DNA of 64,000 bases, taken from NCBI GenBank assembly GCA_009746045.1, contig RPFO01000727.1, positions 1-64,000 on the forward strand, read 5' to 3'. A program made the position numbers and the translations under genes. The DNA comes from Mesostigma viride. Lineage: Eukaryota > Streptophyta > Mesostigmatophyceae > Mesostigmatales > Mesostigmataceae. The notes under the pieces are model-generated. The model was not told where the DNA came from. It made no database searches and saw nothing but the letters and a program-made list of their open reading frames with translations. Position 1 is the stretch's first letter; each line of letters begins with the position of its first letter. Below are positions 1,337-49,241 of this stretch, one piece after another.

Positions 1337-1399
1337 GGTGGTCCCACGCGGAATGGGGTAGATTTTTGCAAGAAAAAAACGCTAATTTCAATCGTCCGA
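1331..1399 (+). repeat. Target duplication CAAGCG and left TIR of the giant transposon
   Basis: CAAGCG (1331-1336) is the left copy of the duplicated target. The TIR (1337-1399) starts GGTGGTCCCACGCGGAATGG and ends in a CAATCGTCCGA block. It aligns to the reverse complement of 20853-20924 except for a roughly 10-base gap next to the TGCAAGAAAAAAACGCTA block. Looser similarity (CGAATTT, GCCGA, TTTTCG words) continues further inward. Confidence 0.85.
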
Positions 1400-1783
1400 A
1401 AACCGGACATTGCGCCGAAATTCTTGCCGAAAATTTGGCAGCCGAGCGAATTTTTCGCCCGACGGACTTTGCGCCGAAATTTTGTGTCTGCCGTGCTTCG
1501 AACTCAACCGACTCCTGCTGTTGCGTGCACTTTGTCCGATGCCTGCAGGCCACGCACGAATTTTGCGACCGAAATATGACGACTAGACAAGTTTATCGAC
1601 GACCTACATCGATCTATTGCCACTTTTGAAGTCCTTGGCTTGCTAGCAGCTTTTGATTATCAATGCCGGGAACAAAATTGCCGAAATTTTTTATTGAATC
1701 AGTACATATATGTGCACATGTCCGTAATTTTATCATTCGCAATTTTGACATTGTCGGAGTATTTGACAACTTAGGCATTGCGC

Positions 1784-2386
1784 CTAGAAAAAGGTGCCCC
1801 ATCCGTCGATGTCAAAATCGCCGAAGGAGTACACTCCCTGGTACTGGTCTCCCCTGTAGTTGGGAGGCTCGCCTGTATACATTTTGGTGTTCCACTTGGC
1901 CCCGCCGTTCTCCGCAGCAGCCAGGAACTCCTGCTGGGCCTCGGCCCTCAGGCGCATCATTGATACATTGGGAGAGCCCGGAATTTCCGTGCTCTCCACC
2001 ACCACTCTCGCCTGATTGTCAGGCACGCATTGGTAAGCAGGGTTCAAATCTGAATCGGGTGGCACCAGATCGATCATGCCATTGCCGAACGCAATGACAC
2101 CTGCACCCCACTGTGCAGAAGGTCCGAGCAACTCTACATCAATTCTGATGTTTGCAGCGTGCTCATTTTTGTCGACCATCACATAGGTATGCTGAGAACC
2201 GAAAATATTGCTCTGCTCCATTTGTGACAGTGTTAAATTTCGGCAAGGTTGGCTGCTTGCAATCGACAGGAAATTGGTGACCCCGACAGCCAGACGCGCA
2301 AGGGTTATAACTGCAGGTAGAACCCAAAATTTGTCGATAAGGAGTAATGGAAGGGCACGACCACCAGTCACTAGTATTCGCTTCAC
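1784..2386 (-). CDS. Hypothetical protein of the giant transposon (3' part of a gene)
   Basis: A 200-aa frame ending in DFDIDGWGTFF. The stretch from MEQSNIFGS (about 2222) to the stop has ordinary globular-protein composition (VMVDKNEHAANIRI, MMRLRAEAQQEFLAAAE, YRGDQYQGVYSFGDF), and no stop interrupts it. Upstream of MEQSN the frame may be intronic. Another frame (2163-2423) is cysteine-rich (CSYNPCASGCRGH) and could be part of an upstream exon. I do not recognise the family. It lies just inside the left TIR and is transcribed towards it, like the transposase. The start is uncertain. Confidence 0.4.
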   Translation of the reverse strand: MKRILVTGGRALPLLLIDKFWVLPAVITLARLAVGVTNFLSIASSQPCRNLTLSQMEQSNIFGSQHTYVMVDKNEHAANIRIDVELLGPSAQWGAGVIAFGNGMIDLVPPDSDLNPAYQCVPDNQARVVVESTEIPGSPNVSMMRLRAEAQQEFLAAAENGGAKWNTKMYTGEPPNYRGDQYQGVYSFGDFDIDGWGTFF

Positions 2387-2542
2387 CGGACACCTTTTTC
2401 AGCTTCCGGATAAAATTCAGCAAGAGCAGCGGCGATTAGATACTAAATATTGCGTTATTGGTTCGTACCGTACCCAGACAAAAATTGTACTAGTGACGCA
2501 ATTGTACTAGGCGGAATGACAACTGCGCCCGGCAAATAAGTA

Positions 2543-2755
2543 TTTATTGCTCCAACCCCACACCTAACTTGTTCCGGAGCTGTTCGAAGCGAAGAGCAAT
2601 GGAAGGGATCGGACCCGAGCCAGATTTGAGTGCGGAACATGATGGCTGGCCTACCTCACTCCGAACATTAAGGTGGACCCGGGTTCGAATCCTGTCAGTG
2701 CTATTCGCTTCGAACAGTTCCGGAACGATTTTTTTTGTGGGGGTGGAGCAATAAA
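2543..2755. repeat. Inverted repeat enclosing a tRNA-like B-box
   Basis: The left arm (2543-2593, TTTATTGCTCC...TGTTCGAAGCGAA) matches the reverse complement of the right arm (2703-2755, ATTCGCTTCGAACAG...GGAGCAATAAA) with a few mismatches. The loop holds GGTTCGAATCC (2682-2692), a perfect match to the RNA polymerase III B-box consensus, but no full cloverleaf folds. It could be a tRNA-derived SINE or a small foldback element inserted in the giant transposon. Confidence 0.5.
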
Positions 2756-3043
2756 TTCTCGACATGCAGAAACAAATGTCGAATAGATTGTGCAAAAAAA
2801 TATCGAAATCCTTATCATTATTTAAATATACAGCATAAAATTATGTTGCAGTAAAAAATAACTGTTAATTGAAGGCCGCAAAAAATTATCAACTACCCTT
2901 AAACTTGACCACAGAAAGATCTCGAAAAATATATACAATATATGCGGCCACCTTTTTACACCCTACTGAAGCCCCACTCTAAAGATATAATACGAGCCGA
3001 AACTAGGGCGTCGTCTACCCGCAGCGAGACCCCAATTTCTTGT

Positions 3044-6000
3044 TTAAGTCGGTGCCGGCCCCTCCGGGGCTTCATCCTTGATCACCAGCGTAGTAAGCCA
3101 CTTGTCGAGCTCCTTGCTCATCCTGATGTCGGCACACATTCCGTCGCTGCGCACGCGTGCTTCTAGCCGGAGAGCCGGAGCGACGCAGAGATAGCAATTC
3201 ACAAGCTCGGGCTGGCGTGACGGTGGCCAATCCTCAACGTTGAGCGTGAAATGCAGGGGGTCATGCTTATCCCGCTTCCAAATCCGAACGGGAAGAATGC
3301 CGTTCCCGGCGAGGAACAGCTCCTTCTCCCGTCCGTTCCGGCCCTCGACCCACCTCTCGAAGTTCTCGTCTAACACGATCGGCCCGGCTTCGCTTACAAC
3401 CTCAGCCAACCAGAACGGGTGGATGGGATCGTGATCCGTGTCCTTGTCCGATGGAACTGCCACATAGTCGTGGAGTCTCATCTGCCGGCCCATCGCCTCC
3501 CGCTTGTCCTTCAGCTGCTCCCCCGCGTCACCATGCGAACCGGAGGGTTGGGCTGGCTCGGTGGCAGCAAACGGACAGTTTTCATCGAGCTTCCTGCATC
3601 ATTGAACTCGATGATAAACGACCACTCGCTTAGACATCCCTCAAACCGCCCAGCCAAACAGGGCGGACAGTAGCAGGAATAGCGCCTAATCATCAAAAGG
3701 CCAGGGTCGGACTTGTCCAGTCGCCACCAATGCGCCTTCTTGATGCCAGGCACCTCCTCAACCTCCCGCGCGTCGGCCGGACTCGACGTCCTGTCATCAA
3801 ATAGTTAGGCAAAAAGAATACCGTTCAATTAGCAAAATTGACCAAAAAATCAATAAAACAGGGTATAGCTGCAGAGAGACCCCTTAAAAAAAAAATTAAC
3901 GACAAGACATCAAGTGATCAAAATTCGACACAGGGTATAGCTGCAGAGAGACCCCATTCGAATCATAATAACAACGTACGACAAGATATCAAGTGATCGA
4001 AATTCGACACAGGGTATAGCTGCAGAGAGACCCCATTCGAATCATAATAACAACGTACGACAAGATATCAAGTGATCGAAATTCGACACAGGGTATAGCT
4101 GCAGAGAGACCCCTTCATACCGAAGAACAAGCGAAATTTCATACCTAAAAGAAAAGCAACCCATTGACAGTATATAGGGTCTCTCTGCAGAGATACCTTT
4201 ATTGGGTTTGAATTTTTATAGAACAGCGGCAGTTGACGTCTTAAAACCTGAAATAACACAAATTCCGTACCGGGGGTAAAAGGAAGAAGTGGCGAGTGAC
4301 GTTCTCGGCCCGCGCGCGGGCCGACTCCCTGCTCGATGTCTTGCCGCCCTGCCAGTTCTGGTTCAAGTAGGCGACTAGCTGGTGGGTCTCAAGTATGTGC
4401 TGGTTTTCGGGAATCCTCTGCATTTCCCTCAAGACGCACTTGCACTTCGCTCCTTGACCATCCACCTCCCCCTTCCCATGCTGCTCCCCCATGTAGTGGA
4501 ACTCAAAGGCCTGCAGGTCGGGATCCCCCATGAGCAGACCGTTAATCTGGTTAATCACGTACCTGGACTTAAACTGCACCGCGCAGTTGTCCGAGCACAT
4601 GTACAGGTTTCGCACCTCTACCCCTACTTCTACCCGCAGGGTTTCCAGAATCTTGCGAAGAGCGTATACGAGTGCGCGCTCGCCCCGCTTGATACTGGAA
4701 TCCCCCAGGAAAAAGAAGACGCGCTTTTCCAGCTCGCCGTTGAGCCGATAACGCACGATCATGGGCATCAGGATGTGGCTGCGCTTGTGGAAGTACTGCG
4801 ACTGCAGTTGGACGTAGCTGCTGTTCTCGTAGTTCTCGGCCCAGTCGCCGTGCACGAGCACGTCCCCCTCTCTCAGATTCTTCTCCCGATCCTTGATTGT
4901 ATCCGCCTGCGACCAGGCCGTAAAGCAGTGCACGGTGAACTTGTCCCACATCTTAAGAATCTCGTCCCGCAGCTCAGCTGGGGTGGACCTCATTTGGACT
5001 TGCTCGGGCCGCTTCACCTTCTTCGCCGCCCTGCCATCGGTCTCGCCCTGTTTCGCAAAGGTCCGCAGACAGTTTCGATTTGCAATAAAATCGCATTTCG
5101 ATAAGATAACTGCAACTCACAAAGGGTCTCGCTGCAGCTATAGGTCACAAAAAAAAAAGTCAACAACATATTAACGGAGAAATAAAATCGAAACCAACTC
5201 ACATTCACCCGTCGGGTCACAGTCTGCTCCACCATCTCGAACTTGAACCAATTCAGAATCTCCGTGGAATTCTTGTCCCGATCACACTGCACCCAGTTAT
5301 TATGGATGCCGCATGATTCCTCAGGACAGAACCCCTCCACACACGCCATCTTCAGTATGCGGTGAACCCTCTCCGTCCTCGGCACCCCATCTTCGTCCTC
5401 CACCAGCCTCTCAGAAATGTCGAGGTCTTCCAGGTCCCGTCCCCGCCATTCATCTTCCCCCTCCCCCTCTTCCATCCCCCCGCCCATTCCGCCCCCTTCA
5501 CGCAGCCCGTTATCCCTGCCGTCAGTCTCGGCGGACACCGGGCAGTGAAAGTGCTTGATCCAGTCCGTCGAGTGAATGGCTTTCCACATTCCGCAAGTAC
5601 CGTCCGGCTCTGTACTTGGAGCATCCCGCACACTCCGCGCCACACTTGCAGTTCTTGCCGTGGTTCGCATTGAGTGCTTGGTCCACGCCCCCATGGCCGA
5701 CTGCATGGTGACGTGCTTCTCACACGCGCACAGGTTCCTCTCCTTCCACTTGCCCTTGATGCAATCGGGCGCGTATTTGCAGAAGGTCGTGTAGCCCACG
5801 TGAATGCCCACGTCCTTATCATACTGGTTACTCCTTTTGTTCCAGTACGCATGCTTTTCGAGAAAGTGATTGTACATGTCCTCCTTGGAGGTCATGTAAT
5901 AGCGCGCTCCCTCAACGGCGACGAGCACCCCGTGATTGCCACGACCCTCCCTGCTGTAAGTGCGCTTGACATCCTTCATCTGGGAGGAGGCGCGCGACTC

Positions 6001-6765
6001 ATCATCGTGCATCCACGCGTCCACTATCGCGTCAATCACGAATTGCGGCAAAGGGCGCCCCTTGCGAGCCTGCGCGTGTCTGAGGTAGTCCAACTTCTGC
6101 TGCCTTCGTATCGCGCGAATTCCGCGAATCTTCTTGGCGTCCATCCCCGTCAGGTTCTCCAACTCCGCGGCCGAAAACTCCTTCTCCAAGTCGTCACCAC
6201 AGTAAAGCGTGGACATCAGCACCATCCTGACGTCTCTGTCTGCGTCGCTTTTGGTCAGACCATCAAAAAAGCCGTTAATCCGAGCCACCCAGAACCTGTT
6301 CAGTTCTGCCATCCGCTCCTGATTGTAAAGCTTTTTCGCCTCCTCATGATACTTCCCGTGACCTAGTTCAGCGGCCCTAGAGTTAAAGCCAGCAATCATC
6401 TGGTCGAAAGCCGGCCCCCGCCCCTCGGGTTTTGTCATCGCCTGAGCCGCTTCAAACGCCTGGTCAGCGAAATATTCCCCAATAACCCTCTTTGATTTCG
6501 AGTATTCTCCCGGCCGCTTGACTTCCTTGGCTTCAGGCTGCGCTGGATTCTGGTTCTCATCTCCGAAAACCCTTTTTGCGCCAGTTGACTGCTTCGTCCC
6601 GGTGTTCAACTTAATTGCACTGAATCCTGGACGACCGGACGCAAGGGCGAAAACTCCCACCCGTTCGCGTGCTGCATGCCATGACGACCGGCACAACGAA
6701 ATCCATGCAAATCGAGTATCGTTGGGAAAAGCGACAATTACAGACAAAGTTCGAAAGTGTATCAT
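3044..6765 (-). CDS. DDE transposase-like protein (DWAENY / SDN..QFK / HGKG..DG family), three or more exons
   Basis: Probable transposase of the 19.6-kb element. The exon model on the minus strand is 6765-5203, 5047-4248 and 3790-3044. Intron 5048-5202 (GTGAGT...CAG) and intron 3791-4247 (GTTTTAAG...CAG) both restore frame. Exon 1 is helical and basic, then has Cys pairs (CKYAPDC, LCACEKH, FCPEESC) that could bind zinc. Exon 2 carries HGDWAENY, MCSDNCAVQFKSRY and HGKGEVDGQG, whose spaced acidic residues match the catalytic pattern of a widespread, poorly named eukaryotic DDE family. Exon 3 has GIKKAHWWR, YCPPC and a DYVAVPSD...FWLAEVV tail. One frameshift near 3600 interrupts exon 3. The true start is unclear: splicing near 6620 from an upstream exon (about 7065-7130) is possible. 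Family assignment rests on motif pattern only. Confidence 0.75.
3898..4113. repeat. 79-bp tandem repeats with one palindrome per unit, inside a transposase intron
   Basis: The GGGTATAGCTGCAG palindrome recurs at 3933, 4012 and 4091, exactly 79 bp apart. Shared intervening sequence includes ACAAGATATCAAGTGATC and AAATTCGACACA. A related, non-periodic copy starts at 3861 and a diverged inverted form at 4177. The array makes up about half of the intron at 3791-4247. Confidence 0.85.
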
Positions 6766-6780
6766 TTTTTACCACGATTG

Positions 6781-7039
6781 GGGTCTAGCTGCAGCTAGAC
6801 CCTTAGAGGGGCTTTTTCCGTTAGACGAAAAGATTACCTGATGTGGTGAACTTAGCATACCCCGACCAAGATTGGGGTCTCGCTGCAGCTAGACCCTTCA
6901 TTGCGGCGTGCGATTGTTAAATCACAGACTTCTGATTCATTAATTTTATAGCAACCATAAAGAGGGTCTAGCTGCAGCGAGACCCTTGAATTTAAGCTAT
7001 TGCTTGTGGTTATAAATGGTCTAGCTGCAGAGAGACCCC
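6781..7039. repeat. Cluster of four palindromes upstream of the transposase
   Basis: Copies at 6781, 6875, 6964 and 7018 lie within 260 bp, immediately 5' of the transposase reading frame on the minus strand. The first three are essentially perfect. The position suits promoter or first-intron sequence. The surrounding 7140-7400 stretch is AT-rich with no supported gene. Confidence 0.75.
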
Positions 7040-7536
7040 AATAAGGACGAAAAGATTTCAGGTTTTCCTCACCTTCGCGGCTCATTCTCTTATTAGTTCT
7101 CCCAGAACACTCAGATACCTGCATGGCGAGAATAACAAAAATAACACAGTAGCATTGATAAAATTGTTTATCAGAAAATATATATACTAATTACAGTATA
7201 TTTTGCAAAAGATTTTATAATATATTGTGAATAGCATGGTTAAATTCCACATACTTTAATAATATGGTATGTTAAAGTATATAGAATCATTATTTAGTAA
7301 ATCATTTACAAGAAAAAGTGGTATAGACTATTATTATTATATAGTTCGGCAATCTATGATAGTAAGACGTACCGGATGTCAGGTTTATCAGCGGCTCCAG
7401 GGCTATAGCGTCTCGCTGCAGCGTGACGTTTGGTGCTATGACTGATTTCAGTAGATGTGCAGAAAAAAATTTATTTCCATGACCACACCAGGAATCGAAC
7501 CCAGAACCTCATTGTACATTCTGCATGGTAACGATG

Positions 7537-7860
7537 TCAGCCAAACATCCGAATGTTCCCAGGTAAATGGGCTGGAGGTCGTCTCTTTTTATACCTGCGG
7601 CCACAAGCACGGGTGACGGCATATTGGATGTCGTCCAATCCGCTAGCTTGGTTCCAAAAGATGGGATCGAGCTTTTGCACCAGCGCCGCGCTTCCAGTTT
7701 TCAGTTCCGTGGGGAGGAACGAGGATGCCACGTTTCCAATTTTTTCAATACCGTTCAGCCCTGTGACGCCGCGTCCGTTTTGCGAATTGCGACCGTCCCA
7801 TCGCCCATCGAAAAAGAAGCGCAGCCGCAGAGAGACCCCATAGCTGATACGAGCTGCCAT
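7537..7860 (-). CDS. Possible small ORF or exon, unknown function
   Basis: A 107-aa frame whose middle part (IEKIGNVASSFLPTELK, ALVQKLDPIFWNQ) looks protein-like, while its N-terminus runs through a degenerate palindrome copy (7819-7839). It could be an upstream exon of the minus-strand transposase gene or a chance ORF. No family is recognised. Confidence 0.25.
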   Translation of the reverse strand: MAARISYGVSLRLRFFFDGRWDGRNSQNGRGVTGLNGIEKIGNVASSFLPTELKTGSAALVQKLDPIFWNQASGLDDIQYAVTRACGRRYKKRRPPAHLPGNIRMFG

Positions 7861-8588
7861 ATCGTTTCGACGTTTGCATGCTACCTGCTGGATTATAAAA
7901 TCCTACGTTGATACCTGCCTGGTGCCGGAAGTTTACAAGGAAATCGGTCTGCTTTCGCCGCACAACGAAAAAAAGGTGAGCTTTTGCCGCATCCTGGATG
8001 GTAGGCTGACTAAAATTGTTCTATCAAAAACGGCAACTAAACAGCGCATGCACGCCGACGACACAGTTAGCCAGCTGGGCGAAGACATGTCCTTGCTGCC
8101 ATCGCAAGAAACTCTATGTTGCAGCAAGAGTGATAAAAATGTCTGGCTTCCTTCTTTTCGTTGCTAGCTAAACCCTGCAGACATCTCGGTAGAGTCAGCT
8201 AAGCCGATCCTAATCCACATCTGGCATCCATCCCTTTAGTCTAGTTGCCATGGAGCGTTTCTTGGTCTCGCACATGTCGATCATGGTGGTGCTAGGCTTT
8301 CACTTGGGTCACCCTTTCCATGTTTGCTATGCCTTTGGTCTGGTTAGGTTATAGGTGTAGATGTGCACATACTGCATTTGCTGCGTTTCTAATCGGTGCT
8401 CCTGTTTGATGCTTTTTTTCCCCTTCATATCGTTTCGACGTTTGCATGCTACCTGCCGGATTATAACATCGGACGTTGCTACCTGCCTGCATAACGATAG
8501 TTTGCAAGAAATCTTCATTTTGCCGAAACACAAAAAAAGGTGATCTTTTGCCGCAACGTGGATGGTAGGCTGACTAAATTGTGCTGCT
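7859..8588 (+). repeat. Direct duplication of about 160 bp (7859-8025 and 8428-8588)
   Basis: Both copies begin ATCGTTTCGACGTTTGCATG and end GATGGTAGGCTGACTAAA, with scattered substitutions and indels between. They are 569 bp apart, and the second copy runs straight into the G-rich minisatellite. No coding role is evident. Confidence 0.8.
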
Positions 8589-10180
8589 ACGTATCAATAC
8601 ATGTGTGGGGGGGTGCTGCTACGTATCAATACATGTGGGGGGGTGCTGCTACGTATCAATACACGTGGGGGGTGCTGCTACGTATCAATACACGTGGGGG
8701 GGTGCTGCTACGTATCAATACATGTGGGGGGGTGCTGCTACGTATCAATACATGTGGGGGGGTGCTGCTACGTATCAATACATGTGGGGGGGTGCTGCTA
8801 CGTATCAATACATGTGGGGGGGGCTGCTACGTATCAATACATGTGGGGGGGCTGCTACGTATCAATACATGTGGGGGGTGCTGCTACGTATCAATACATG
8901 TGGGGGGGGCTGCTACGTATCAATACATGTGGGGGGTGCTGCTACGTATCAATACATGTGGGGGGTGCTGCTACGTATCAATACATGTGGGGGGGGTGCT
9001 GCTACGTATCAATACATGTGGGGGGGTGCTGCTACGTATCAATACATGTGGGGGGGTGCTGCTACGTATCAATACATGTGGGGGGGTGCTGCTACGTATC
9101 AATACATGTGGGGGGTGCTGCTACGTATCAATACATGTGGGGGGGTGCTGCTACGTATCAATACATGTGGGGGGGGATGCTACGTATCAATACATGTGGG
9201 GGGGTGCTGCTACGTATCAATACATGTGGGGGGGTGCTGCTACGTATCAATACATGTGGGGGGGTGGCTACGTATCAATACATGGGGGGGTGCTGCTACG
9301 TATCAATACATGTGGGGGGGTGCTGCTACGTATCAATACATGTGGGGGGGTGCTGCTACGTATCAATACATGTGGGGGGTGCTGCTACGTATCAATACAC
9401 GTGGGGGGGGATGCTACGTATCAATACATGTGGGGGGTGCTGCTACGTATCAATACATGTGGGGGGTGCTGCTACGTATCAATACATGGGGGGTGCTGCT
9501 ACGTATCAATACATGTGGGGGGGTGCTGCTACGTATCAATACATGTGGGGGGTGCTGCTACGTATCAATACATGTGGGGGGTGCTGCTACGTATCAATAC
9601 ATGTGGGGGGGGCTGCTACGTATCAATACATGTGGGGGGTGCTGCTACGTATCAATACATGTGGGGGGGTGCTGCTACGTATCAATACATGTGGGGGGGT
9701 GCTGCTACGTATCAATACATGTGGGGGGGTGCTGCTACGTATCAATACATGTGGGGGGTGCTACGTATCAATACATGTGGGGGGGGCTGCTACGTATCAA
9801 TACATGTGGGGGGTGCTGCTACGTATCAATACATGTGTGGGGGGTGCTGCTACGTATCAATACATGTGGGGGGGTGCTGCTACGTATCAATACATGTGTG
9901 GGGGGTGCTGCTACGTATCAATACATGTGGGGGGTGCTGCTACGTATCAATACATGTGGGGGGGTGCTGCTACGTATCAATACATGTGGGGGGGTGCTGC
10001 TACGTATCAATACATGTGGGGGGGTGCTGCTACGTATCAATACATGTGGGGGGTGCTGCTACGTATCAATACATGTGGGGGGGCTGCTACGTATCAATAC
10101 ATGTGGGGGGGGCTGCTACGTATCAATACATGTGGGGGGGCTGCTACGTATCATACATGTGGGGGGGTGATGCTACGTAT
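8583..10180 (+). repeat. G-rich minisatellite, about 50 units of about 31 bp
   Basis: The unit is GTGCTGCTACGTATCAATAC followed by ATGT and a run of 5-8 G. Units differ mainly in G-run length and in single substitutions (for example CACGTG for CATGTG). All three plus-strand frames stay open for more than 500 codons only because the unit has no stop codon, so these are not genes. Repeated G-runs make quadruplex formation on the plus strand plausible. Confidence 0.97.
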
Positions 10181-10184
10181 CATT

Positions 10185-11735
10185 TATTTATTCATGCCAT
10201 CACCCCCCCACATTTAATGATTAATGCCATCACCCCCAACATTCATTTATTCATGCCATCACACCCCACATTCTTTTATTCATGGCAGCACCCCCCACAT
10301 TTATTTTATTCATGCCATCACCCCCCCACATTTAATTATTAATGCCAGCACCCCCAACATTCATTTATTCATGCCATCACACCCCCACATTCTTTTATTC
10401 ATGGCAGCACCCCCCACATTTATTTATTCATGCCATCACCCCCCCACATTTAATTATTAATGCCAGCACCCCCCAACATTCATTATTCATGCCATCACAC
10501 CCCCACATTCTTTTATTCATGGCAGCACCCCCCACATTTATTTATTCATGCCATCACCCCCCCACATTTAATTATTAATGCCAGCACCCCCCAACATTCA
10601 TTTATTCATGCCATCACACCCCCACATTCTTTTATTCATGGCAGCACCCCCCCACATTTATTTATTCATGCCATCACCCCCCCACATTTAATTATTAATG
10701 CCATCACCCCCCAACATTCATTTATTCATGCCATCACACCCCACATTCTTTTATTCATGGCAGCACCCCCCACATTTATTTATTCATGCCATCACCCCCC
10801 CACATTTAATTATTAATGCCAGCACCCCCCAACATTCATTTATTCATGCCATCACACCCCCACATTCTTTTATTCATGGCAGCACCCCCCCACATTTATT
10901 TATTCATGCCATCACCCCCCCACATTTAATTATTAATGCCAGCACCCCCAACATTCATTTATTCATGCCATCACACCCCCACATTCTTTTATTCATGGCA
11001 GCACCCCCCCACATTTATTTATTCAAGCCATCACCCCCCCACATTTTTTTTTCATGGCAGCACCCCCCACATTTATTTATTCATGCCATCACCCCCCACA
11101 TTTAATTATTAATGCCAGCACCCCCCAACATTCATTTATTCATGCCATCACACCCCCACATTCTTTTATTCATGGCAGCACCCCCCACATATATTTATTC
11201 ATGCCATCACCCCCCCACATTTAATTATTAATGCCAGCGCCCCCCAACATTCATTTATTCATGCCATCACACCCCCACATTCTTTTATTCATGGCAGCAC
11301 CCCCCCACATTTATTTATTCATGCCATCACCCCCCACATTTAATTATTAATGCCAGCACCCCCCAACATTCATTTATTCATGCCATCACACCCCCACATT
11401 CTTTTATTCATGGCAGCACCCCCCCACATTTATTTATTCATGCCATCACCCCCCCACATTTAATTATTAATGCCAGCACCCCCAACATTCATTTATTCAT
11501 GCCATCACACCCCCACATTCTTTTATTCATGGCATCACCCCCCCACATTTATTTATTCATGCCATCACCCCCACATTCTTTTATTCATGGCAGCACCCCC
11601 CCACATTTATTTATTCATGCCATCACCCCCCACATTTAATTATTAATGCCAGCACCCCCCACATGCATTTATACATAGCATCCCCCCCCACATGTATTTA
11701 TACGTAGCTTCCCCCCCCAAATGTATTTATACGTG
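10185..11735 (+). repeat. C-rich minisatellite, 118-bp higher-order unit, mirror of the preceding array
   Basis: Each 118-bp unit contains four diverged subunits of about 29-30 bp built on the pattern TATTCATGCCATCACCCCCC plus ACATT, repeated about 13 times. The last subunits (11655-11735) read ACATGTATTTATACGTAGC, close to the reverse complement of the first array's unit. The two arrays therefore look like inverted, separately evolved relatives meeting near 10182. Confidence 0.93.
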
Positions 11736-11742
11736 GTCGTAA

Positions 11743-12095
11743 GGGTCTCGCTGCGGGTAGACCCTCGGAATTTTGTTTTTGTATTGACGTAAGGGTCTCG
11801 CTGCAGCGAGACCCCAAGGAATGTCAATTTTTCATGTTTTCATGATGGGGGGTCTTTCTTTTCTCACCCTTAAAATGATTTGTTTTTGTATCGGTGTTAG
11901 GGTCTCGCTGCAGCGAGACCCTACGAATGTCGACTTTTAATGTTTGCAAGATGGGAGGGGGCTTTCTTCGCTCACCCTAAAAATGATTTGTTTTTGTTTG
12001 ACGTTAGGGTCTCGCTGCAGCGAGACGCCAAAGTTTTGCATTAAACTAAATGTCCCTTTTAGAATCCACGAAAGGGTCTAGCTGCAGCGAGACCC
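11743..12095. repeat. Cluster of five palindromes 5' of the accessory gene
   Basis: Copies start at 11743, 11793, 11900, 12007 and 12074. Four are separated by similar spacer text (TTTTTGT, AATGTC, TTTTCATG-like words), giving a loose repeat of about 107 bp for three of them. The cluster lies just upstream of the start codon at 12173 and after the minisatellite, so it may include the promoter or a leader intron of the accessory gene. Confidence 0.8.
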
Positions 12096-12172
12096 TCCCC
12101 ATCGTTTTTCTGCCGGCGATTCAGATTCTGAATGACATTTGTGAAACTTGCTTTTTTGATATTGTTCTGCAG

Positions 12173-13319
12173 ATGTCGTCCTCCTATTCCGATTCTGTCA
12201 AGGCCACTCCCGTTTCACCCAAGATGACGTCGAACACCTCGCCCGTAAATGCTCTGGCGAGGTCCCCCCCCACCGAGTCCCCCTCGCCCTCCAAGTCCAA
12301 CTTGCCCCCCAGCGAGTTGGACAGAATTATACCCCCCAACCCTCTCGCTGCTGCGTCTCGCGCTCCGTCCCGCTCTCCGCCCCGTAAGTCTCCATCGCCG
12401 CCCCCAAGTCGGCCGGAGCTACTGCGTCCCGCTCGCCGCCCCGCAAGTCCCCCAAGTCCCCCGCAACTGCGACCCGTTCGCCGAACCGCAAGTCCCCCTC
12501 TCCGCCCAAAGTTCCCCCCGCTACCGCGTCCCGCTCTCCTTCTCGCAAGTCCCCCTCGCCGTCAACCAAGAACCCCGCAACTGCGTCCCGCTCGCCGTCC
12601 CGCTCTCCTTCCCCCAAGTCCCGCTCGCCGCCACCCAAGTCCCCCGCTTCTGCGTCCCGCTCGCCGTCCCCCAAGCATTCCAGTTCTAAGCGTAAGCCTG
12701 CGGCCGAGTGGGTAGAGGAAGACGACCGCACCAAAGAGCTCAGGAAGCTGAGGAAGTCTATCAGTGAGCTTGTTGAGGAGGACGAGCGCGATCAGACTAA
12801 CGGGAGGCCTGAAGACCCGGAATCGCCGGTTCGGGAGTCGCGTCAGAAGCGGTTGTCCGATTTGTTAGCAATGGCCGCAAGCTTTGCTGACGAATACGCG
12901 GCTCTCGACAAGAAGGACAAGGAGAAGGAGAAGGCGGAGAGGGAGGCCATCGAGAAGGCGGAGAGGGAGAGGGTGGAGAGGGAGGAGAAGGAGAGGCTGG
13001 AGAAGGCGGAGAGGGAGGAGGAGGAGAGGGAGTACAAGGAGAAAAAGGCTGCCCAGGAGAAGGAGCACAGGATCCTGGTGGCGAAGCAGAAGGAGGAGGC
13101 GAAGAAGAAGACGGAGGCGGCAGCGAAGGAATTCTTGCGGAGGAGGCCGCTCTTTTTTTGCAGATGCGACAGGAGAGGATGAAGGCGGAAGAGGCCGCGA
13201 GGAAGATGGAGGAGGAGGCTGCGAGGAAGGAGGAGGAGGCTGCGAAGGCAGTTGAGGGGGAGAAGGACGAGAACGGGAGCCCACCCCTTCTTCACGAAGG
13301 ATTTTCAGTCGATTATCAG
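12173..13319 (+). CDS. Accessory gene exon 1: RS/SP-rich region then coiled coil
   Basis: Starts MSSSYSDSVKATPVSPK. About 150 residues follow of repeated SRSP, RKSP and SPKS motifs (12240-12690), like SR splicing factors or chromatin proteins. After a KPAAEWVEEDDR linker there is a long Glu/Lys/Arg/Ala heptad-like stretch (about 12890-13260; KEKAEREAIEKAERE), a strong coiled coil. Frame changes near 12405 (a C-run) and 13140 separate these parts. The exon ends DYQ at the donor GTATGT (13320). Confidence 0.65.
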
Positions 13320-16300
13320 GTATGTTTATTAATGTGAGACGTACATTTTTCAGATGGCTTGAACGGCGTGTGTGTATCGTAGAAAGGGTGGGATTTTATG
13401 TCATACATTGATCGTAAGGGTCTAGCTGCGGAGAGACGTTGACCTAGGAGTTAAGGTTGTTGACGACGACGATGTGTGGCCTTTTTTTTACTCTTGTTGT
13501 CTGCAGCCCGACACGCTGGCCATTCTGAAACAGTACCTGGCTCAGGCTGAGTCTGAGTCTGGGGTGAGTCGTAAAGCCGAAAAGGGCTTGAGAGGCTTGA
13601 TCCGCTTTCTTTCGGCCGAGATAGCGTTTGCAGAGAAGTCCGGTGTCGTCGTGGACCGTCCGGAGTCGGCAGACATAATTTGGAAGAACGACCGCTGGGC
13701 CGTCTTGCATTGTTCGAAGCCACACAGCGAGCCATTCATGGGAAGAGGGTCGTTGGTGACGACATGTATGAGGTTTTGAAGATCGCGCAGTCGTGCATCC
13801 TTAATCTGAAGGAGGATGTCGGACGTTACTTTCCCCGTCGTGCTTTAATATGGTCGACGCTCTTTGATGAGGTTGAAAAGTTCGAGGTCCACATTGGCTT
13901 CACATGCATCGAGGCTTCCTATATGGAAACCTTGAAAACCACTGCGTTGCATCAGCTCTTTAAACTCATGACTGGAGATATGAGAGCGGATTCGAGGGCT
14001 TCACTGTCGGAAGATGAAGTGTTTGATATTGTCAGGCAAGGATTTGTTGACACGTCCAACAGTGACTTATCGTAATTGTGCCGGGAAGAATGAATGACGT
14101 AGGAGGATTGGAGGAGCGCGCACATGAAGTGATCGCGCATTTGGACATGGCAAGAGACCACTTACTGCAATCTTTTGTTAAGTGGCGGACTGACTTTCTT
14201 GTCAGCCCGGACGCCAGCCTTTCGCGGGAAGCGGTCGCTTTCTTTTTGGATTGGGCTGGACAGGTGATCCAAAGTTTCCGGCACCGGGAGGACTTCCATG
14301 TTATTCAGACATATAAGCCATACCGGGAAGTCGTCCAGGAATGGTTGGATCAAATCTCGTTGGTTGATTGTCTCCAGAGTATCCGAACCAAGACAGACAC
14401 GGAGTGGTCTGATTTAGAGGCGGGAGGCCATTGGCAGTCCCTCGAGTTGTTCTTCGAGGCGGAATTGAGGCGGCAACTGGAAAAGGAGAGAGCCCATCAA
14501 GTGCCGATATGGCCTTTGGGGAAGATTTTGAGGAGGTGGAAGTTCTACGTTTCGGTACGTTAACTTGCCGATATCGTTTATCGATTTGGGTTGTTTCCAT
14601 TCCCTGAATAGGGCTCTATATGCTGACCAACCTTCATGGTTTGTCCTGTCATATCATGCAGGGGGGCTCCATGCCAGGGGACGTATCGGAGGATTTACCT
14701 AATTTGTCAGACTTGGTTGATAAGGTGGGTGCTTGTCCGTCGAGTTTCCACGAGCATCTTACATGGGGTCTAGCTGCAGGTAGACCCTCACCCTTTTATT
14801 GAGACTGACATGTTCGGCTAATTTCAACGGTGCCCCCAACCAATCTGTTGTCTTTTTTCAGGGGGCGGCTGCGGCGATGGCTGTTGACAGTGCTGGTATT
14901 TGGTCTGGACTCGAGATGGAAATGGTAAGCATTAAACGATATCCGGATGTCTGCATTTCGCCTGAAGTTTTAGTGAGCGCATTATGCGAAATATACAAAT
15001 GTCGACTAATTTTGATTTCCAATGAGCTGTCGTATTCGGTGTTGACAGGCGGGGGGTTTGGCCTCAGCAGGCGCTGCCGGAGAGGAAGAAAACGCTGGAG
15101 GAGATGAGGATGGGGGGGATGAAAACGCTGGAGGAGATGAGGATGGGGGAGACGCTGAGGGAGAAGTGGCTGTGCAGGTACGTTCATCCGCCGCGAGTTC
15201 GTGTGATTTTTTTCGTGCTGAGGGGTATCTCCGCAGAGAGACGATGGTGCAACAATCGAACTGAGGTCAAGTCCCTTCTTGTTCGTTTTTTTTTGTCATG
15301 CAGGCGGGGGCTGTCGCTGGGGGTACTGCGGGGGGGAAGGCGGCGAAGCCCCATTGACTGAGCATGAAAGGGAAAAGCTGGATTCCCGCAAGAAGGTTGC
15401 GAAGGATCATATTATTGCTGTTGGCCTGATCATGCTTAAGTCTCCGCCCGATGGCGTCGATTCGGAGGGACCTGCGGGGTCCGAGTTTCGCAAGTACCTG
15501 ACACGACTTGAGGCGGAAGTCGATGCCGATTTCGATACGGAGGTGTTGGGTGACGCTACCTTTAAGAGTGAATTGGCATATGAATTTGTAAATCTGGTGA
15601 AGTCGAAAGCCACCAAGAATTTCAAGTGGCAGCCTAAGGAGTACTCAGAGGCAAAGGTTGACAAGATCGAGAAATTCATGAAGGCTGATTTTCGTCGTCG
15701 GGCCGCTGAGGGAAAAAGGGCGCTGAATGCGGTGGCAAAGGCCAACAGTAAGAAGAACGCGGAGGCGAAGGCGGCGGAGAAGGAGGCGAAGAAGGCGGAG
15801 AAGGAGAAGGCTAAGGAGGCCAAGAAGCAGCAGAAAACTGGACAGGTACGATTGTTGTGAAAATTTAGACCTCTCGCTGCGGGTAGACGCTGACTGGCTG
15901 CGGGACTTGGTGTTTAGTGTCAGTAAGGTATTATTCCAACAGAACTTTGTTCGTCCCTGAACAGGATGTCGTGGTCGGCCTAAAGATTACTGACTTGAGC
16001 AAATCCTGCGGTCCTTTTCGATTTTTTACTTCAGGATGACGGGGGGGACGAAGACGCCACGGTGGAGAAGAAGTTACCTGGTCATGACGCCGTGTTCGCG
16101 CTGGTGAAGGATATGCTCAAGTACTGCTCGAGTAGGCGGATGGCGGACGTCGATGACCTGCCAAACTGGCCCGAGTTCTCCCCCTTTCTTGAGCTGCTCC
16201 GGTCACTCAACAAGCTTTTTAAGGAGGGGGTGCTCACGAGCAGTGGGAACCCGGACACCGACCCTATCATTGAAAGCTGGAAGCCTTCGAAAAAGGTCGA

Positions 16301-19300
16301 CTCGAACAAGGAGGTCAGGGACCAGAACATCCGGAAGGCCAATACTCTCAGGGAAACGCGTTGGATTCGGCCGGCCGATTTTAAGCAGACCGGATGTTTC
16401 AGTATGCGGATCCAGACGGTCAACGCGCTTATTTTGCCAGAGGCTTTGAGGCAGCGGCGTTTAAACCTTGAAACCATTAAGGAGAACGGCCGCATTCTCC
16501 TCAATGCGCGGGACAACGCCTTGCACTTCAAGGTTGTTGTCCCGGTCTGGCAGTTCCCTTTCCAGGCGCTTGCCGAATCTCAACCTGACCTGTTCGACAA
16601 GCAAATCTTGTGCATGCCGGATTTCGTCAAGTGGCTGAAGCATTCACCACGGCGCCAAGATTGACGCGGAGGATGTGGGGTCCAGGTACTTCCGGCCCCT
16701 TTCGGATACTGAAGTCGACGTGTGGCTTAACACGGAGTCCACCACCTCTTTCCTCGCGAGAGGACTTGAGTGGCGTACCTACGCCAGGGTGGACGAGGTG
16801 GCCGCAGTTTTGCCTCAGGAGATCGAGGGCAGTCGGGTTTTTCAACCTGCTGTGCAATACTGCGATGAAGTCCTACGATCCGAAATTTTTTGAGGAACGG
16901 GTACCGGTACCGTATCTGGTTCTCCGGTACGCGGTGGTGGATGGGAACCACTACTTTAAGGGGTTAAAGTCGTTTCTCAGGGGGCCGGATGGCGGGTGGG
17001 GAGAGGTTCGGGCAATGATGTGCGAGGGTGGGGCGGAGTCCAATTTCGCAAATACTCCTAAGGAGGCGGAGCACGCCTTCCAGGACCTGTTGCGGAAATT
17101 CCGTGGTGGTTACATGGGTACGAACGTCATTCTTCTCAAGGGTGGCGACCTGCTCCCGTCGTGGAGTGAGCTGCGAAATCTACCTAAGGCAAAAGAAGAT
17201 GTAAGCTATCTATTTTGGCAGGGTCTAGCTGCGGGTAGACCCTCGGAATTTTCGTGGTTGTTTTTTGTGTGCGCTTCAAGTTTTTTGCGAGGGTCTCGCT
17301 GCAGCTAGACCCTCTCCTTTTTTTTGTTGGAATTTTCGTTGCGTATTGTCGGCCGTTTCTTTTTCGAATTTTGTTAGGGTCTATCCGCAGCTATACCCCT
17401 CGCCTTTTATGACTGAGTTTTGTCGTTGCTCGCTCGATGTTAATTGATGTCGCAGGCGGTGCTGACCGGCAAGCTGGAGAAGCTGTTCGACATCGCCAAG
17501 GGGGCGAATTCGGAGGACTTAGCCGTGGCGGATCGTACGCTGGGCCAGGCGTTGCTTGACGTGTGGAACTACAACAAGCTATATCTATACGGCAAAGTCA
17601 CGCGTGGGAAGGGCCACTATATTGCGGATGGCCACTACACCAATCTGCTCACGTACATCCTCCCGGCTATGCGGCAAGCGGGGGGAAGGGAAGGGAATGT
17701 GGAGCCGGCAGCGGTGGATGTACACGAGGAGGAAGCAGAAGGAAAGAAAAAGCCGGCCCACAGCATTGCTTCAGTGCATTCCGCTTACAGTCGCACGCTG
17801 GCCAACACGTTTCTCCGTCTGACACAGGAGCAGACTGATGATCCTGCCTCAACGAAACCCGCGCCTGAGGAGGTGATGATGCAAAGGTGCAAATTCGCCA
17901 ATGCAGAGGGGGAGAAGAAAGGCCAGAAGGTCTCTTGGACTTCTTTCAGGAACTTGGCCAGCCTTCCTATGATGGACGCCGTGATCGATTGCATCATGAG
18001 CTGCCAGGTTGGACCGGAAAAGCTCACCAAGTTGGTGGAGATCGCCAAGGATGTGCTGGAGTGCCTGCGGCTGACCATTTGCGCCAGATTCAAGGAGGAT
18101 GAGACGCTGGAAGCGCAATGCAAGGACGCAAATGGCAAGGAGTTTGTGGCGTCTCATATTTTCGAACTCGTCTTCAATCTCCATCCTCTCGCTCGGCCGG
18201 TCGGCAGGAAGGAGATTGTGGCCAGATACCGGGAATTTTGGGATGTGGCCGTCATCATAACGAGGAACATCGCCTACCTTCTTAAAGCCAAAAAACACGC
18301 CGCACATCTGAGGATTCCGAGAAAGGATATCAGTAATGGCAAGATCGACTTTCAGGAGATTCTGCTAAAAGAGAGCGAGGACAAGACGGTGGGTTTGGCA
18401 CTTTTGGCTCCGGAAGCGTTCAGGAAGTACGCTCCAAAAGTTGGATTACTCGAAGGGGGGGTGAAGGAGGCGGCGATGAAGGGGCCGGTGAAGGGGCTGG
18501 AGAAGGGAAGGGAAAGGGGAAGGAGACGGAGGCGAAGAAGGAGAGGAGGCGAAGGAGGAGGAGGAGTGGGACGTGAAGTATGAGTGGCAGAGTGTGGACT
18601 GGGGCCGTCGCCGGGTCTGGTTTTGCTGTCAGGAACTAGACGGTGATGATGATGACAAGTCGCTCGTCAAGCAGGTGGCAGGCGAGGTTGCCTCAGCTTC
18701 AGCCCGCCCCTTTCCCTTGGGCAGGTCCCTTCCGTGCCTGAGCCTGCTGAACTTGGCGAACATTTGGGGTGATAAGTGGAGTAACTTTCAGTCCAGGTGG
18801 TGGGCGTTCGGTCCTTGCCCGAGAATCGGACATTCCCCAACCGGGCGGGATGTACGATCATGTGCTGAAGGCTTGCGCCCACGAGTTTTTCTCCAGGTTC
18901 GAACCGATGGTGATCGTGTTTGGTACCGAGACGGAGATTAAGGGGTTTCAAGAGATAGTGGAAAGGATCGGGAAAGGGAGTGAATTGTGGGAGCGGCTTG
19001 AACAGGGGGAAGGTGATGGGGGGCCTAGGCTCGGAAGGGCGAAGAAGCGAAAAGCTTCCCACGAAGCTGGGGGATTGTCCGCCGTGGTGGAGAGGGATGA
19101 CCAACAGTTGTTGGAGGGAGGGGATGGAGGGGATGGAGGTCCGGCAGGAGGGTCTAACCGCGGAGAGACCCCCGTCGAGGTCAGAACGCAGCAGGCCGAA
19201 CAGATGACGGGGCCTGAAGGTGATTCGGATCCGCCTGCGGCGAAGAAGCCCGCTTCTCAAGTGACTCGACGGGCAGTCGTGTCACTTGTTGAGGATGATG

Positions 19301-20631
19301 GAGGTGGGCCTTCCAAGCCTGCCGCGTCGCAGCCCGTTTTTCAGGTTCCGAAGAAGCAGCTTCGGGTTCCCCCGGCGACTCTGCCCACCCCGGCGCCTCT
19401 GCCCAGTTCTCAGGTACCGAAGAAGCAGCTTCGGGTTCCCCCGCCGACTCTGGCCATTTCTCAGGTACCGAAGAAGCAGCTTCGTAAGCCAGTTGTGGCA
19501 GTGGCTGATTCGGACGACGATGCTGAGGAGGAGGAGGAGGAGGAGGACGACGATGCTGAGGAGGAGGAGGGGGAGGAGGAGGAGGAGGAGGAGGAGGAGC
19601 AGCACGTTGCTACCAAGAAATCCGCCAAGGGTGGGAAGGCTGCGGAGCACGTTGCTTCCAAGAAATCGGCCAAGGTGGGGAAGCCTCCCAAGCCTGCCCT
19701 GCCTCAGAAACGGCGTCGAAAAGCAGTTGTGCTTTCAGATTCGGACGATGAGGAGGAGAAGGAGGAGGAGGATGGCGGCGGAGAGGAGGAGGACGGGGGA
19801 AAGGAGCGCGTTGCTTCCAAGAAGTTACCCAAGACCGCGAAGACTGCCAAGGTTGCCGAGCCCGCCAAACCCGCCCCGGCGCCTGCCCCCCACCCCCAGA
19901 CGGGGTCTACCTGCGAGCAGAGGTCGAAGGAAAAGGCCAAAAAGGGTAAGAAAAAATCTGCGAGTGAATTCTGGTATGTAGAGTGTTTTGATTTTTTACG
20001 GTTGGCAGTCCGATTTCTACTAACTCGATTTTAGTCATGCGTTGATGGCATGATCGGTTTGCTCGCAGGTAATGAGGATGTGGAGCAGTTACTTCGCTTG
20101 GCTAATGTGGCGGTGGGCTTCGGACCAGCGGCTGTACATGCTGACACTTCCGGACGGGAGGAGCCTAAGGGGGCGGAAGACAGTCAGGCGGGCGATGAGG
20201 ATGATGACAAGCCCACGTTGGAAATGAGACTTATGGACGGGGAAATGGGGTTCGGAGCACCAGAGGCCTTTTGGTGTGATGGGTGGACTTTAGCCATTAT
20301 GCAAGCAGGGAACAAGGATACGGCTACGCCAATGTATGCCAAGCTAGAAGACGTCATGCTTTATGGGCAGGTGTCTGGATACGACACCAAGTGGAGGGAC
20401 GTCGCATTTAAGTTTTTCGCTGAGGGGGAGAAGGGAGGGAAGTTGAAGAACAAGTTGTGGTGGATGCCGCTGGACTACGCGATGAAGGTGGTAAAGCTGA
20501 CGGATGGCAAGAGCTGGAAGGATGTGGAAGTCTGGGCGCCTGCAAAGGAGATCGATAAGAAGAGGAGGAACTCGAAAACGGAACAGCAGATCGCGGAAGC
20601 GAAATTACGGAAGAGGCCCTCGAAAGTGTGA
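12173..20631 (+). CDS. Very long multi-exon accessory gene of the giant transposon, function unknown
   Basis: One gene of at least nine exons is inferred. Start ATG 12173 follows TTCTGCAG. Introns: 13320-13506, 14555-14661, 14725-14861, 14925-15048, 15178-15303, 15846-16034, 17201-17455 and 19974-20068, all GT...AG. The region around 18580-18830 is unresolved. The stop is TGA at 20631. The product would exceed 2000 aa: an RS/SP-rich N-terminus, a charged coiled coil, several folded segments, a very acidic Lys-rich linker and a basic tail. Single-base frameshifts occur near 12405, 13140, 13745, 14070, 15355, 16640, 16845 and 18500, mostly at homopolymers. The RS, acidic and basic character suggests a nuclear protein. 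No known domain is recognised, and two or more genes are possible. Confidence 0.6.
13507..14554 (+). CDS. Accessory gene exon 2, globular segment
   Basis: Follows a TGTCTGCAG acceptor. It reads PDTLAILKQYLAQAESESG and, after a frame change near 13745, a helical segment (VVGDDMYEVLKIAQSCILNL...EVEKFEVHIGFTC...HQLFKLMTGDM). After a second frame change near 14070 it continues as EERAHEVIAHLDMARDHLLQ and WRTDFLVSPDASLSREAVAFF to FYVS at the donor GTACGT. No family is recognised. Confidence 0.6.
14662..15845 (+). CDS. Accessory gene exons 3-6
   Basis: There are three short exons (14662-14724, 14862-14924, 15049-15177) and one longer exon (15304-15845). The 15049 exon holds two copies of a short acidic repeat (ENAGGDEDGGD). 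The last exon has a helical segment (LTEHEREKLDSRKKVAKDHI; EFRKYLTRLEAEVDADFD) and a Lys/Ala/Glu-rich tail (AEAKAAEKEAKKAEKEKAKE). Introns between them carry palindrome copies at 14766 and 15223. One frameshift occurs at a C-run near 15355. Confidence 0.6.
16035..17200 (+). CDS. Accessory gene exon 7, best-conserved-looking globular segment
   Basis: Acidic start (DDGGDEDATVEKK), then a long folded-looking region: WPEFSPFLELLRSLNKLF, ETRWIRPADFKQTGCFSMR, HFKVVVPVWQFPFQAL, RYFRPLSDTEVDVWLNTES, SYDPKFFEERVPVPYLVLRY and GGYMGTNVILLKGGDLLPS. Two frame changes (about 16640 and 16845) interrupt it. Ends KED at the donor GTAAGC. It has no recognised domain, but is the best query region for a profile search. 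Confidence 0.6.
17456..18660 (+). CDS. Accessory gene exon 8
   Basis: After an intron carrying three palindromes (17221, 17291, 17377), the frame reads AVLTGKLEKLFDIAKGANSE, LLDVWNYNKLYLYGKVTRGK and a helical region (MMDAVIDCIMSCQVGPEKLT; KEIVARYREFWDVAVIITRN). Near 18500 a G-run frameshift separates a basic frame from an acidic one (EEAKEEEEWDVKYEWQ), which continues through WFCCQELDGDDDDK. No family is recognised. Confidence 0.6.
18835..20631 (+). CDS. Accessory gene 3' exons: short folded segment, acidic/basic linker, C-terminal domain
   Basis: Begins GGMYDHVLKACAHEFFSRFE, followed by a low-complexity nuclear-type region. That region has three VPKKQLR repeats (19340-19490), long Asp/Glu runs (19510-19600, 19740-19800) and repeated VASKKSAK motifs. 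A palindrome copy is translated at 19150. Intron 19974-20068 (GTATGT...CAG) joins a final exon (FWCDGWTLAIMQAGNKD, KLWWMPLDYAMKVVKLTDG) with a basic end (KKRRNSKTEQQ). Stop at 20629-20631, about 290 bp before the right transposon end. Confidence 0.6.
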
Positions 20632-20852
20632 GGGAAAGTTAGCACTTGGACATGCGCTGGCAATGCTCGTCCTATGGTTAATACAAAGGTTAGGATGATG
20701 TCGAGTCTCTCCACGTAAAATTTACATGAATTACTAACTTTCAAGCCTCTCGATGTGGAATGTACGCTCAAATTGACATGAATTAAGCATTATGACACCA
20801 AATTAGCTCGAAAATACGCGATCGGACGCCAAATTCGCGCGAAAAAAAGATA

Positions 20853-20930
20853 TCGGACGATTGAAACTAGCGTTTTTTTCTTGCAAAATGCGCCAAAAAT
20901 GACCCCATTCCGCGTGGGACCACCCAAGCG
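20853..20930 (-). repeat. Right TIR of the giant transposon and target duplication
   Basis: The reverse complement of 20853-20924 matches the left TIR, including the GGTGGTCCCACGCGG terminus. It is followed at 20925-20930 by CAAGCG, the second copy of the target duplication. LINE coding sequence continues immediately afterwards (GTGACCTCTTCAAGG). Confidence 0.85.
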
Positions 20931-30216: not shown

Positions 30217-30789
30217 TGTTACGCCGCGGATATCTACCTCCACCTCTACCTCTAATGGGCCTGATACTACCTAAACTGGTCAGGCCTCCTCTACTTAACC
30301 CTCTGGCGAAAGACGAACGTGACGGAGCTGATCTCAATGCATTAACGTAAGTGTTACTATAATACGCCATACAACCATTTATCAAAACCCGTTTACTCCA
30401 GGAATAGAGGAAGGAAACACAACTACACTGCCGTGACCCAAGCCTAAATGTGTCAATTCACTTAACACACGCCGAGTGCACACACAAGGGGTAGAACGCG
30501 CATAAATGGTCACCAACGGTCCAACACGCTCGGGCCGACATGGCCCTCGCCTACAGGTGCACGCTGGTCCACTAAATCTACTGATGCACGCTGGTCCACT
30601 ACATTCTACCACAGGATCAGGACCACTAGTAAAGTACGCGGCGCGGCGCCCAACGGCACCCAATGTACCACGGTACTGTTACGAGGACAATAATGTCCCG
30701 GTAGGAGCCTAAACGTAAACCTAGGGACAACCGAGGCAAAGGACCTAATTTACGTCCGTAACTACAACGAATTGTTACGCGACGTAACA
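30217..30789 (-). repeat. 3' LTR of inner element
   Basis: 573 bp, read on the minus strand TGTTACGTCGCG...GCGGCGTAACA. The adjacent polypurine tract (a G-run followed by GAGG) lies at about 30790-30802 on the minus strand, directly upstream of the LTR. Unlike the outer LTR it carries an internal duplicated CACGCTGGTCCACTA segment. Confidence 0.93.
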
Positions 30790-31158
30790 CCTCCCCCCCC
30801 ACAAAGGTAGGGAGCCCTCTCCCTACGTACAGGGAGGAAAACAAGGGGTAGGAAACCTAATGCACCCAGCACACACTAACACAGTCAGCAGGCCATCCAA
30901 GATACAAGGCACCAATAGTTCACACGGTCTCCACCACCACGCCTGGAGGTGTAGGGTTAGCCAGCACCAAGCCTGGTGGTAGGTTCCCCTAACTGCCTGG
31001 AACGAAGTCCTTGCCGGGGGGAACGGCACTGGGCAGGACACACAGAGTAAACCCATCAGCACCAAGGACCAAGAACGACCAGTCAACTGGCCAGAACATG
31101 AGGGCGACTCTACATACCGGAGGGACAACACCCTCAGGTCGGGCCTAAGGCCCTCTAT

Positions 31159-33464: not shown

Positions 33465-33540
33465 GACGGCTGCGGAGGGGAGGGGACAACCAACCACCCG
33501 TCGACAGCAGACATAACATAAGAGAGGAGAAGGTCTACAA

Positions 33541-38235: not shown

Positions 38236-38359
38236 TTTTGTTTAAGTAAATGATCAAAAATCTAACTGAAAGCAACAAGGATAAAGGACCAGGCCTAATA
38301 CAAGGCAAGGAAAGAAAAGGAAAAGATTTTAATGGCTTAAAAGAAAGGGACAATTTAAA

Positions 38360-45925: not shown

Positions 45926-46001
45926 TTGGCAACCTGCCCCTCCCTTATCGTATTTCTGCTGTTGGTGGTTGGCTGGTTGTCCCCTCCCCTCCGCAGCCAT
46001 C

Positions 46002-48680: not shown

Positions 48681-48692
48681 TGGGGGGGGAGG
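48681..48692 (+). other. Polypurine tract of outer LTR element
   Basis: A purine run TGGGGGGGGAGG directly abuts the 3' LTR start TGTTACG at 48693. The same arrangement is found in the inner element. It is the expected plus-strand primer site for reverse transcription. Confidence 0.8.
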
Positions 48693-49236: not shown

Positions 49237-49241
49237 CCCGC

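Follow-up and report, generated by a model that had tools for sequence, protein, structure and literature searches.

The DNA analysed here is a window of 64,000 nucleotides from Mesostigma viride (Streptophyta; assembly GCA_009746045.1, contig RPFO01000727.1, positions 1 to 64,000 of the forward strand), in which positions 1337-20924 form a 19,588-bp insertion within a long interspersed nuclear element (LINE) retrotransposon. From left to right the insertion carries a terminal inverted repeat (TIR), a small open reading frame (ORF), a transposase-like gene on the minus strand, five copies of a 22-bp dyad, two minisatellites, five further dyads, an accessory coding region on the plus strand and a second TIR; frame scoring makes the two main genes divergent. 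A preliminary description, made by reading the sequence without database searches, had proposed a 19.6-kb DNA transposon with complete, matching ends. That proposal stands: the element is a complete giant TIR DNA transposon flanked by a 6-bp target site duplication (TSD), and the window also holds its empty site. The dyad array and the two related, head-to-head 30-bp minisatellites did not figure in that description and are reported here.

Ends and target site of the element

The terminal sequence GGTGGTCCCACGCGG is present exactly and in inverted orientation at both ends, at 1337-1351 on the plus strand and at 20910-20924 on the minus strand. When up to two mismatches were allowed, the window held one further match, at 32430, against a mean expectation of 0.12 from shuffled sequences; this two-mismatch site is isolated and was taken as chance. 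From the terminus match and the alignment of the two ends, the TIR extends over 63 bases on the left (1337..1399, plus strand) and 72 on the right (20853..20924, minus strand), with the first 23 positions identical and with three mismatches and nine gap columns in the whole alignment. The hexanucleotide CAAGCG, already noticed in the preliminary description, lies directly outside both ends (1331-1336 and 20925-20930) and occurs once at the empty site.

The empty site itself is seen in two other LINE copies of the window. Joined through a single CAAGCG, the flanks of the insertion match positions 51169-51048 on the minus strand at 118 of 122 bases and positions 49237-49322 on the plus strand, which belong to a truncated copy, at 84 of 86. 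If both copies of CAAGCG are kept in the joined flanks, a 6-base gap opens against both empty sites; because the join with a single hexanucleotide fits both and the double one leaves a gap, the element must have inserted cleanly, with a target duplication of exactly 6 bp. The LINE copy at 51 kb matches a join of 300 bp from each flank with 95.1% identity over 614 columns, and in longer alignments 589 of 614 columns agree on the left flank and 582 of 714, with 112 gap columns among the 714, on the right. The copy at 49.2 kb starts about 25 bases ahead of the site, so that of the two uninterrupted targets pointed out earlier both show the empty site, but a long two-sided sequence is available in the 51.1-kb copy only. 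Matches to the Pfam family RVT_1 on both sides of the insertion support the LINE label. Terminal inverted repeats, a target duplication and a clean empty site, which are among the features by which a class II TIR transposon is recognised, are all present.

Coding regions and classification

The transposase-like gene comprises about three exons on the minus strand, and its coding nature is backed by frame scoring. Its N-terminal exon lies at 5214..6765, with a coding score that is clear from about 6560 downwards; the middle exon, at approximately 4241..5083, contains the putative catalytic core as judged from motif spacing; and the C-terminal exon, at approximately 3044..3804, is drawn from open frames and coding score, its tail ending at 3044. 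Along the middle exon the motifs HGDWAEN, CSDNCAVQFKSR and GEQHGKGEVDG follow one another, and the acidic residues, all in this one exon, are spaced D-84-D-34-E or D-84-D-42-D depending on the choice of the third acid, an order that we read as the usual arrangement of an RNase H-like transposase. Two cysteine-rich stretches stand on either side: the first exon has KNCKCGAECAGCSKYR, near 5600-5680 and in a different frame, and the last exon has RYSCYCPPCLAGRFEGC. Together, the motif order, the location of the gene within a TIR transposon and an insertion staggered by 6 bp make it plausible that the minus-strand protein is a DDE/D transposase. The DDE transposase-like gene of the preliminary description is thereby upheld as a coding gene with a plausible motif order and spacing, but none of the profiles or PDB sequences searched gave it a confirming match. 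A small ORF of about 146 codons (1784..2224, minus strand) follows the transposase-like gene towards the left end; its coding score is positive over the 3' part only and it has no family match.

The Pfam scan covered 15 segments of the element and two of the LINE, chosen from 92 stop-to-stop frames of at least 90 amino acids in positions 1-22000, a set that excludes the short putative exons of 14664-15178 as well as positions 18584-18750; six segments were further compared with NCBIfam, eight with PHROGs and 4 with PDB sequences. The profile searches of the transposase exons proposed in the preliminary description, run against Pfam, NCBIfam and PHROGs, returned no meaningful family match, and for three transposase segments even an E-value limit of 10 brought none in Pfam. 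The weak hits, BSP_II (0.005, on an acidic repeat) and phrog_37659 (0.03) among them, were taken as low complexity or chance, the Pfam matches being below the cut-offs, and the one PDB match, with an E-value of 0.68, was rejected. The core exon found no relative among the genome contigs searched, with a single-protein query that detects close relatives only. Degenerate HGK-DG patterns were met in 1 and 12 viral contigs; on translation these gave no recognisable relative (best tblastn E-value 1.9) and were put down to chance. The contig collections are of prokaryotes and viruses, poor ground for a eukaryotic transposon.

Between the second D and the end of the middle exon there is neither a C/DxxH nor a CxxC motif, and the one H(4)H present comes after the putative third acid. 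The C/DxxH motif is described for hAT, Kolobok, P, MuDR and Dada transposases (PMC3706591), and in EnSpm and its relatives the interval from the second D to the last E holds C(2)C and H(3-4)H (PMC12730594). Provided that the third acid is rightly placed, the absence of C/DxxH argues against the first group and the lack of the other motif layout against the second.

The accessory region (12173..20631, plus strand) spans 8.5 kb and holds, by frame scoring and an approximate exon model, about 7.2 kb of coding sequence in about nine putative exons; the accessory coding capacity announced earlier is therefore present, though its figure of more than 8 kb is not reached. A stop codon at 14075 may split the region into two genes. 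Exon borders throughout the element were set from open frames, GT-AG signals and codon score and are approximate.

Giant transposons with accessory genes have precedents in algae; the publications on which the following comparisons draw were available in part, and the comparisons extend to those parts. The giant KDZ, EnSpm and Sola-1 elements of Ectocarpus are generally longer than 10 kb, reach about 30 kb and carry accessory genes (PMC12477816). One of them, the 21.5-kb Sola1-1_Ec32, carries, opposite in strand to its transposase, an accessory gene for a protein with ParB-like and methyltransferase domains, which is suggested to bind the transposon that encodes it and to modify it (PMC12477816), and EnSpm families of 16-20 kb with several ORFs are reported from Chondrus crispus (cited in PMC6431247). 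The earlier comparison with Polintons, Teratorns and Starships thus proves too narrow, since algal giants of the DDE/D type had been published (PMC12477816, PMC6431247). Since the algal KDZ, EnSpm and Sola-1 groups include DDE/D transposons that measure 10-30 kb and bear accessory genes, the size of the element is not new; its novelty possibly lies in the superfamily and in the dyad array. With the Ectocarpus giants it has in common a transposase of (here putative) DDE/D type, large size and accessory genes, including the opposite-strand arrangement of Sola1-1_Ec32, and it differs from them in its 6-bp TSD and GGTGG ends, with no mention of a dyad array in the available part of that paper. The accessory segments scanned gave no Pfam match to ParB-like or methyltransferase domains. 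Size and the presence of several ORFs are shared with the Chondrus EnSpm families.

A TSD of 4 bp is usual for Sola-1 elements, and this length, against 6 bp here, would be the sole difference noted from that superfamily. EnSpm/CACTA families, as PMC12730594 describes them, have CAC..GTG ends and a 3-bp TSD, neither of which is found in the element. IS3EU/GingerRoot shares the 6-bp TSD (PMC10045372, PMC12730594), and fungal IS3EU families likewise have TIRs longer than 30 bp and extra genes, whereas the ends of this group are TA..TA (TAYGG..CCRTA), occasionally TG..CA in GingerRoot, against GGTGG..CCACC here. Zisupton has an 8-bp TSD (PMC12730594, the available part of which gives no values for Kyakuja and Dileera), against 6 bp here. 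Dada overlaps with the element in its TSD of 6-7 bp and reaches 11 kb, but no TIRs were found in it, and it targets small RNA genes and shows DxxH after the second D (PMC3706591), in contrast to the TIRs, the LINE target and the middle exon without DxxH here. As far as checked, the ends and the TSD jointly fit none of these superfamilies, and by TSD length or termini the published descriptions set EnSpm, IS3EU/GingerRoot, Zisupton and Dada apart from the element; a new superfamily is possible but unproven.

We lean slightly towards a known superfamily whose models lie beyond the libraries searched, for instance in Repbase or Dfam only, so that the element would be an ordinary new family, IS3EU/GingerRoot-, Sola- or KDZ-like, with unusual ends or TSD. 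The 6-bp TSD common to IS3EU/GingerRoot and the algal giants of the KDZ, EnSpm and Sola-1 groups speak for such an assignment, as do the 51 unclassified DNA-transposon families listed for Ectocarpus alone (PMC12477816, Table 1). It is opposed by termini unlike those of IS3EU and EnSpm, by a TSD unlike that of Zisupton and by the silence of Pfam on the three transposase segments. A further point in its favour is the motif order D-FAEN, D-QFK, HGKG-DG that uncharacterised animal proteins have in common. The question is one of classification, and such an assignment is compatible with the explanation that we favour below.

That this copy is a non-autonomous or dead giant element, moved in trans and carrying decayed passenger genes, seems to us possible rather than probable. 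The reading frame is broken without an evident intron at two points near 5540-5680 in the first transposase exon, at one point in the last exon and at about seven in the accessory region, and giant Ectocarpus elements with pseudogenised transposases are reported (PMC12477816). On the other side, open stretches of about 290-430 codons from stop to stop still show coding bias, so decay would be slight, and the breaks may reflect assembly error or, in some cases, unrecognised introns. Assembly errors are conceivable because the LINE copies of the window differ by one base in a homopolymer beside the target site. Since both main genes show frame breaks, the present copy may be defective, with assembly error as the alternative.

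The dyad array and a proposed mechanism

The 22-bp dyad GGGTCTMGCTGCAGCKAGACCC occurs at 17 sites with up to three mismatches, compared with none in 100 dinucleotide shuffles. At up to six mismatches from one form the count is 24, every site falling within 3011-19171 and none in the remaining 44 kb, whereas ten first-order random sequences together contained one; at up to seven mismatches the number rises to 27, with none beyond the element. A search for half-sites by pattern gave 40 inside the element and 2 outside. Under the exon model, 23 of the 24 dyads are non-coding, against a non-coding share of 34% in the non-satellite part of the element. An exact match to the dyad was found in neither the viral nor the genome contigs, and a comparable array was not described in the accessible parts of the literature searched.

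Ten of the sites, placed by the dyad scan and the exon model, lie ahead of the two divergent genes: five upstream of the transposase start codon by 16-643 bp (6781, 6875, 6964, 7017 and 7408; 6781..7429) and five upstream of the accessory start codon by 99-430 bp (11743, 11793, 11900, 12007 and 12074; 11743..12095). Outside these clusters, 12 of the 14 remaining dyads fall in 6 of the 10 putative introns, namely five in the second transposase intron (3861..4198, four of them within a 79-bp tandem repeat), one in the first (5124), three in one accessory intron (17221..17398) and single sites in other accessory introns at 13418, 14766 and 15223. One dyad lies past the transposase stop codon (3011) and one, at 19150, is coding.

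The arms of the dyad vary independently of each other: 172 of 216 cells are paired, with a shuffled mean of 172.8, and 1271 of 2000 shuffles reached the observed value. Two half-sites for a dimer fit this independence, and a compensated hairpin is unsupported by it. An action of the dyad as RNA, through hairpins in introns and untranslated regions and not as a protein-binding DNA site, is accordingly unlikely. The sites in putative introns and upstream regions and the 9-bp stems with a 4-base loop that the sequence would allow are in keeping with such hairpins, but arm compensation does not exceed that of shuffles, and 10 of the 24 sites are upstream of the two start codons. On the simplest reading, judged from its sequence and distribution, the dyad would offer two half-sites to a DNA-binding protein that acts as a dimer at both promoters, which would point to self-regulation or self-marking. 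In the En/Spm system, the element protein TnpA binds many short, element-specific motif copies in subterminal repeats; the many element-specific copies are alike in the two cases, whereas the 22-bp dyad here is found in promoters and introns, away from the ends.

Between the two divergent genes lie minisatellite A (8581..10182, 54.5 copies of a 30-bp unit, G-rich on the plus strand) and minisatellite B (10181..11730, minus strand, 52.4 copies of a 30-bp unit). In inverse orientation the two units are identical at 23 of 30 positions at the best of 30 rotations, and these G/C-run arrays meet head to head, where the GC skew flips. Directly ahead of minisatellite A there is a direct repeat, 7858-8022 and 8426-8585, with 82.5% identity over 166 columns. 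Elsewhere in the element, a stretch of about 220 bp at 2539-2759 forms an inverted repeat that is 73% self-complementary and, on our reading, looks like a nested short element with a transfer RNA B-box-like stretch.

We regard it as likely that the element is a giant TIR transposon of the cut-and-paste type with a DDE/D transposase, an accessory protein and dyads bound by a dimer of its own making. The minus-strand protein would bind the ends of about 63 bp, excise the element and join it to staggered cuts 6 bp apart, and the product of the plus-strand gene would work alongside it. The dyads would be the binding sites of a dimeric protein that the element encodes, either the transposase, through its cysteine-rich parts, or the accessory protein, and the bound protein would repress or mark both divergent promoters and the introns and so adjust expression to copy number. 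The two promoters are separated by the head-to-head minisatellites. A more far-reaching proposal, which we consider doubtful, is that the element represents an undescribed DDE/D superfamily, characterised by its 6-bp TSD, GGTGG..CCACC ends and a D-84-D-42-D or D-84-D-34-E core between cysteine-rich stretches, with dyad operators spread over both promoters and six of the ten putative introns that an element-encoded dimer reads to regulate or epigenetically mark the whole element.

Several observations weigh against the self-regulating transposon proposed here. No other copy was detected within the window by blastn with the whole element or by tblastn with two transposase exons, and with no second copy seen there its mobility rests on one insertion. 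The two main transposase exons are without a meaningful Pfam, NCBIfam, PHROG or PDB-sequence match, training of the coding score used parts of four frames of the element itself, and the exon borders are approximate. As four dyads share the 79-bp tandem repeat and three share one of 107 bp, the number of independent origins is smaller than 24. No dyad lies less than 1.6 kb from either end of the element, so that they do not resemble subterminal transposase sites and may have no part in transposition; a reading as subterminal binding sites was dropped on this ground. The non-coding bias, finally, may mean merely that coding sequence does not tolerate the motif.

The reasons for the size of giant eukaryotic DNA transposons with accessory genes, and the way in which such elements control themselves, are poorly understood. 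The element described here joins an unambiguous insertion, with ends, duplication and empty site, to a precise cis feature, the dyad, which makes the regulatory hypothesis directly testable. If its transposase does fall outside the known superfamilies, it would add a lineage to the DDE/D tree.

Other giant elements and the rest of the window

An integrated viral or Polinton-like element is most improbable: the size range of 15-25 kb (PMC6431247) and the 6-bp TSD of Polinton/Maverick (PMC10045372) would fit, but the profile searches of the 15 element segments gave no match to the family B polymerase, packaging ATPase and cysteine protease of that group (PMC6431247) or to a capsid protein, two transposase exons and one accessory exon have no relative in the viral contigs (where close relatives only are detectable), and the terminal 20-mer and the dyad have no exact match there. 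Among the same segments, Pfam likewise gave no match to the piggyBac-like transposase and herpesvirus genes of Teratorn. The hallmark of Starships is a tyrosine recombinase captain. No match to such a recombinase was found in these segments either, and the earlier remark that the hallmark genes of Polintons, Teratorns and Starships are not seen in the element holds for all 15 of them in profile searches.

Beyond the transposon, the window contains a probable long terminal repeat (LTR) retrotransposon at 30216-39584, in which two identical segments of 300 bp, 30216-30515 and 39285-39584, enclose an integrase with a chromodomain; at about 40481-48773 lies a related copy in inverted orientation. 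The last part of the window, 59652-64000, is a near-perfect palindrome that runs to the window end, with four listed arm pairs of 286-652 nucleotides, together about 2 kb and 99-100% complementary, around a centre at about 61825; it is either a genuine inverted duplication or an artefact of fold-back in the assembly. A single 5S ribosomal RNA match (Rfam, 96.5 bits) lies at 53022-53140 on the minus strand.

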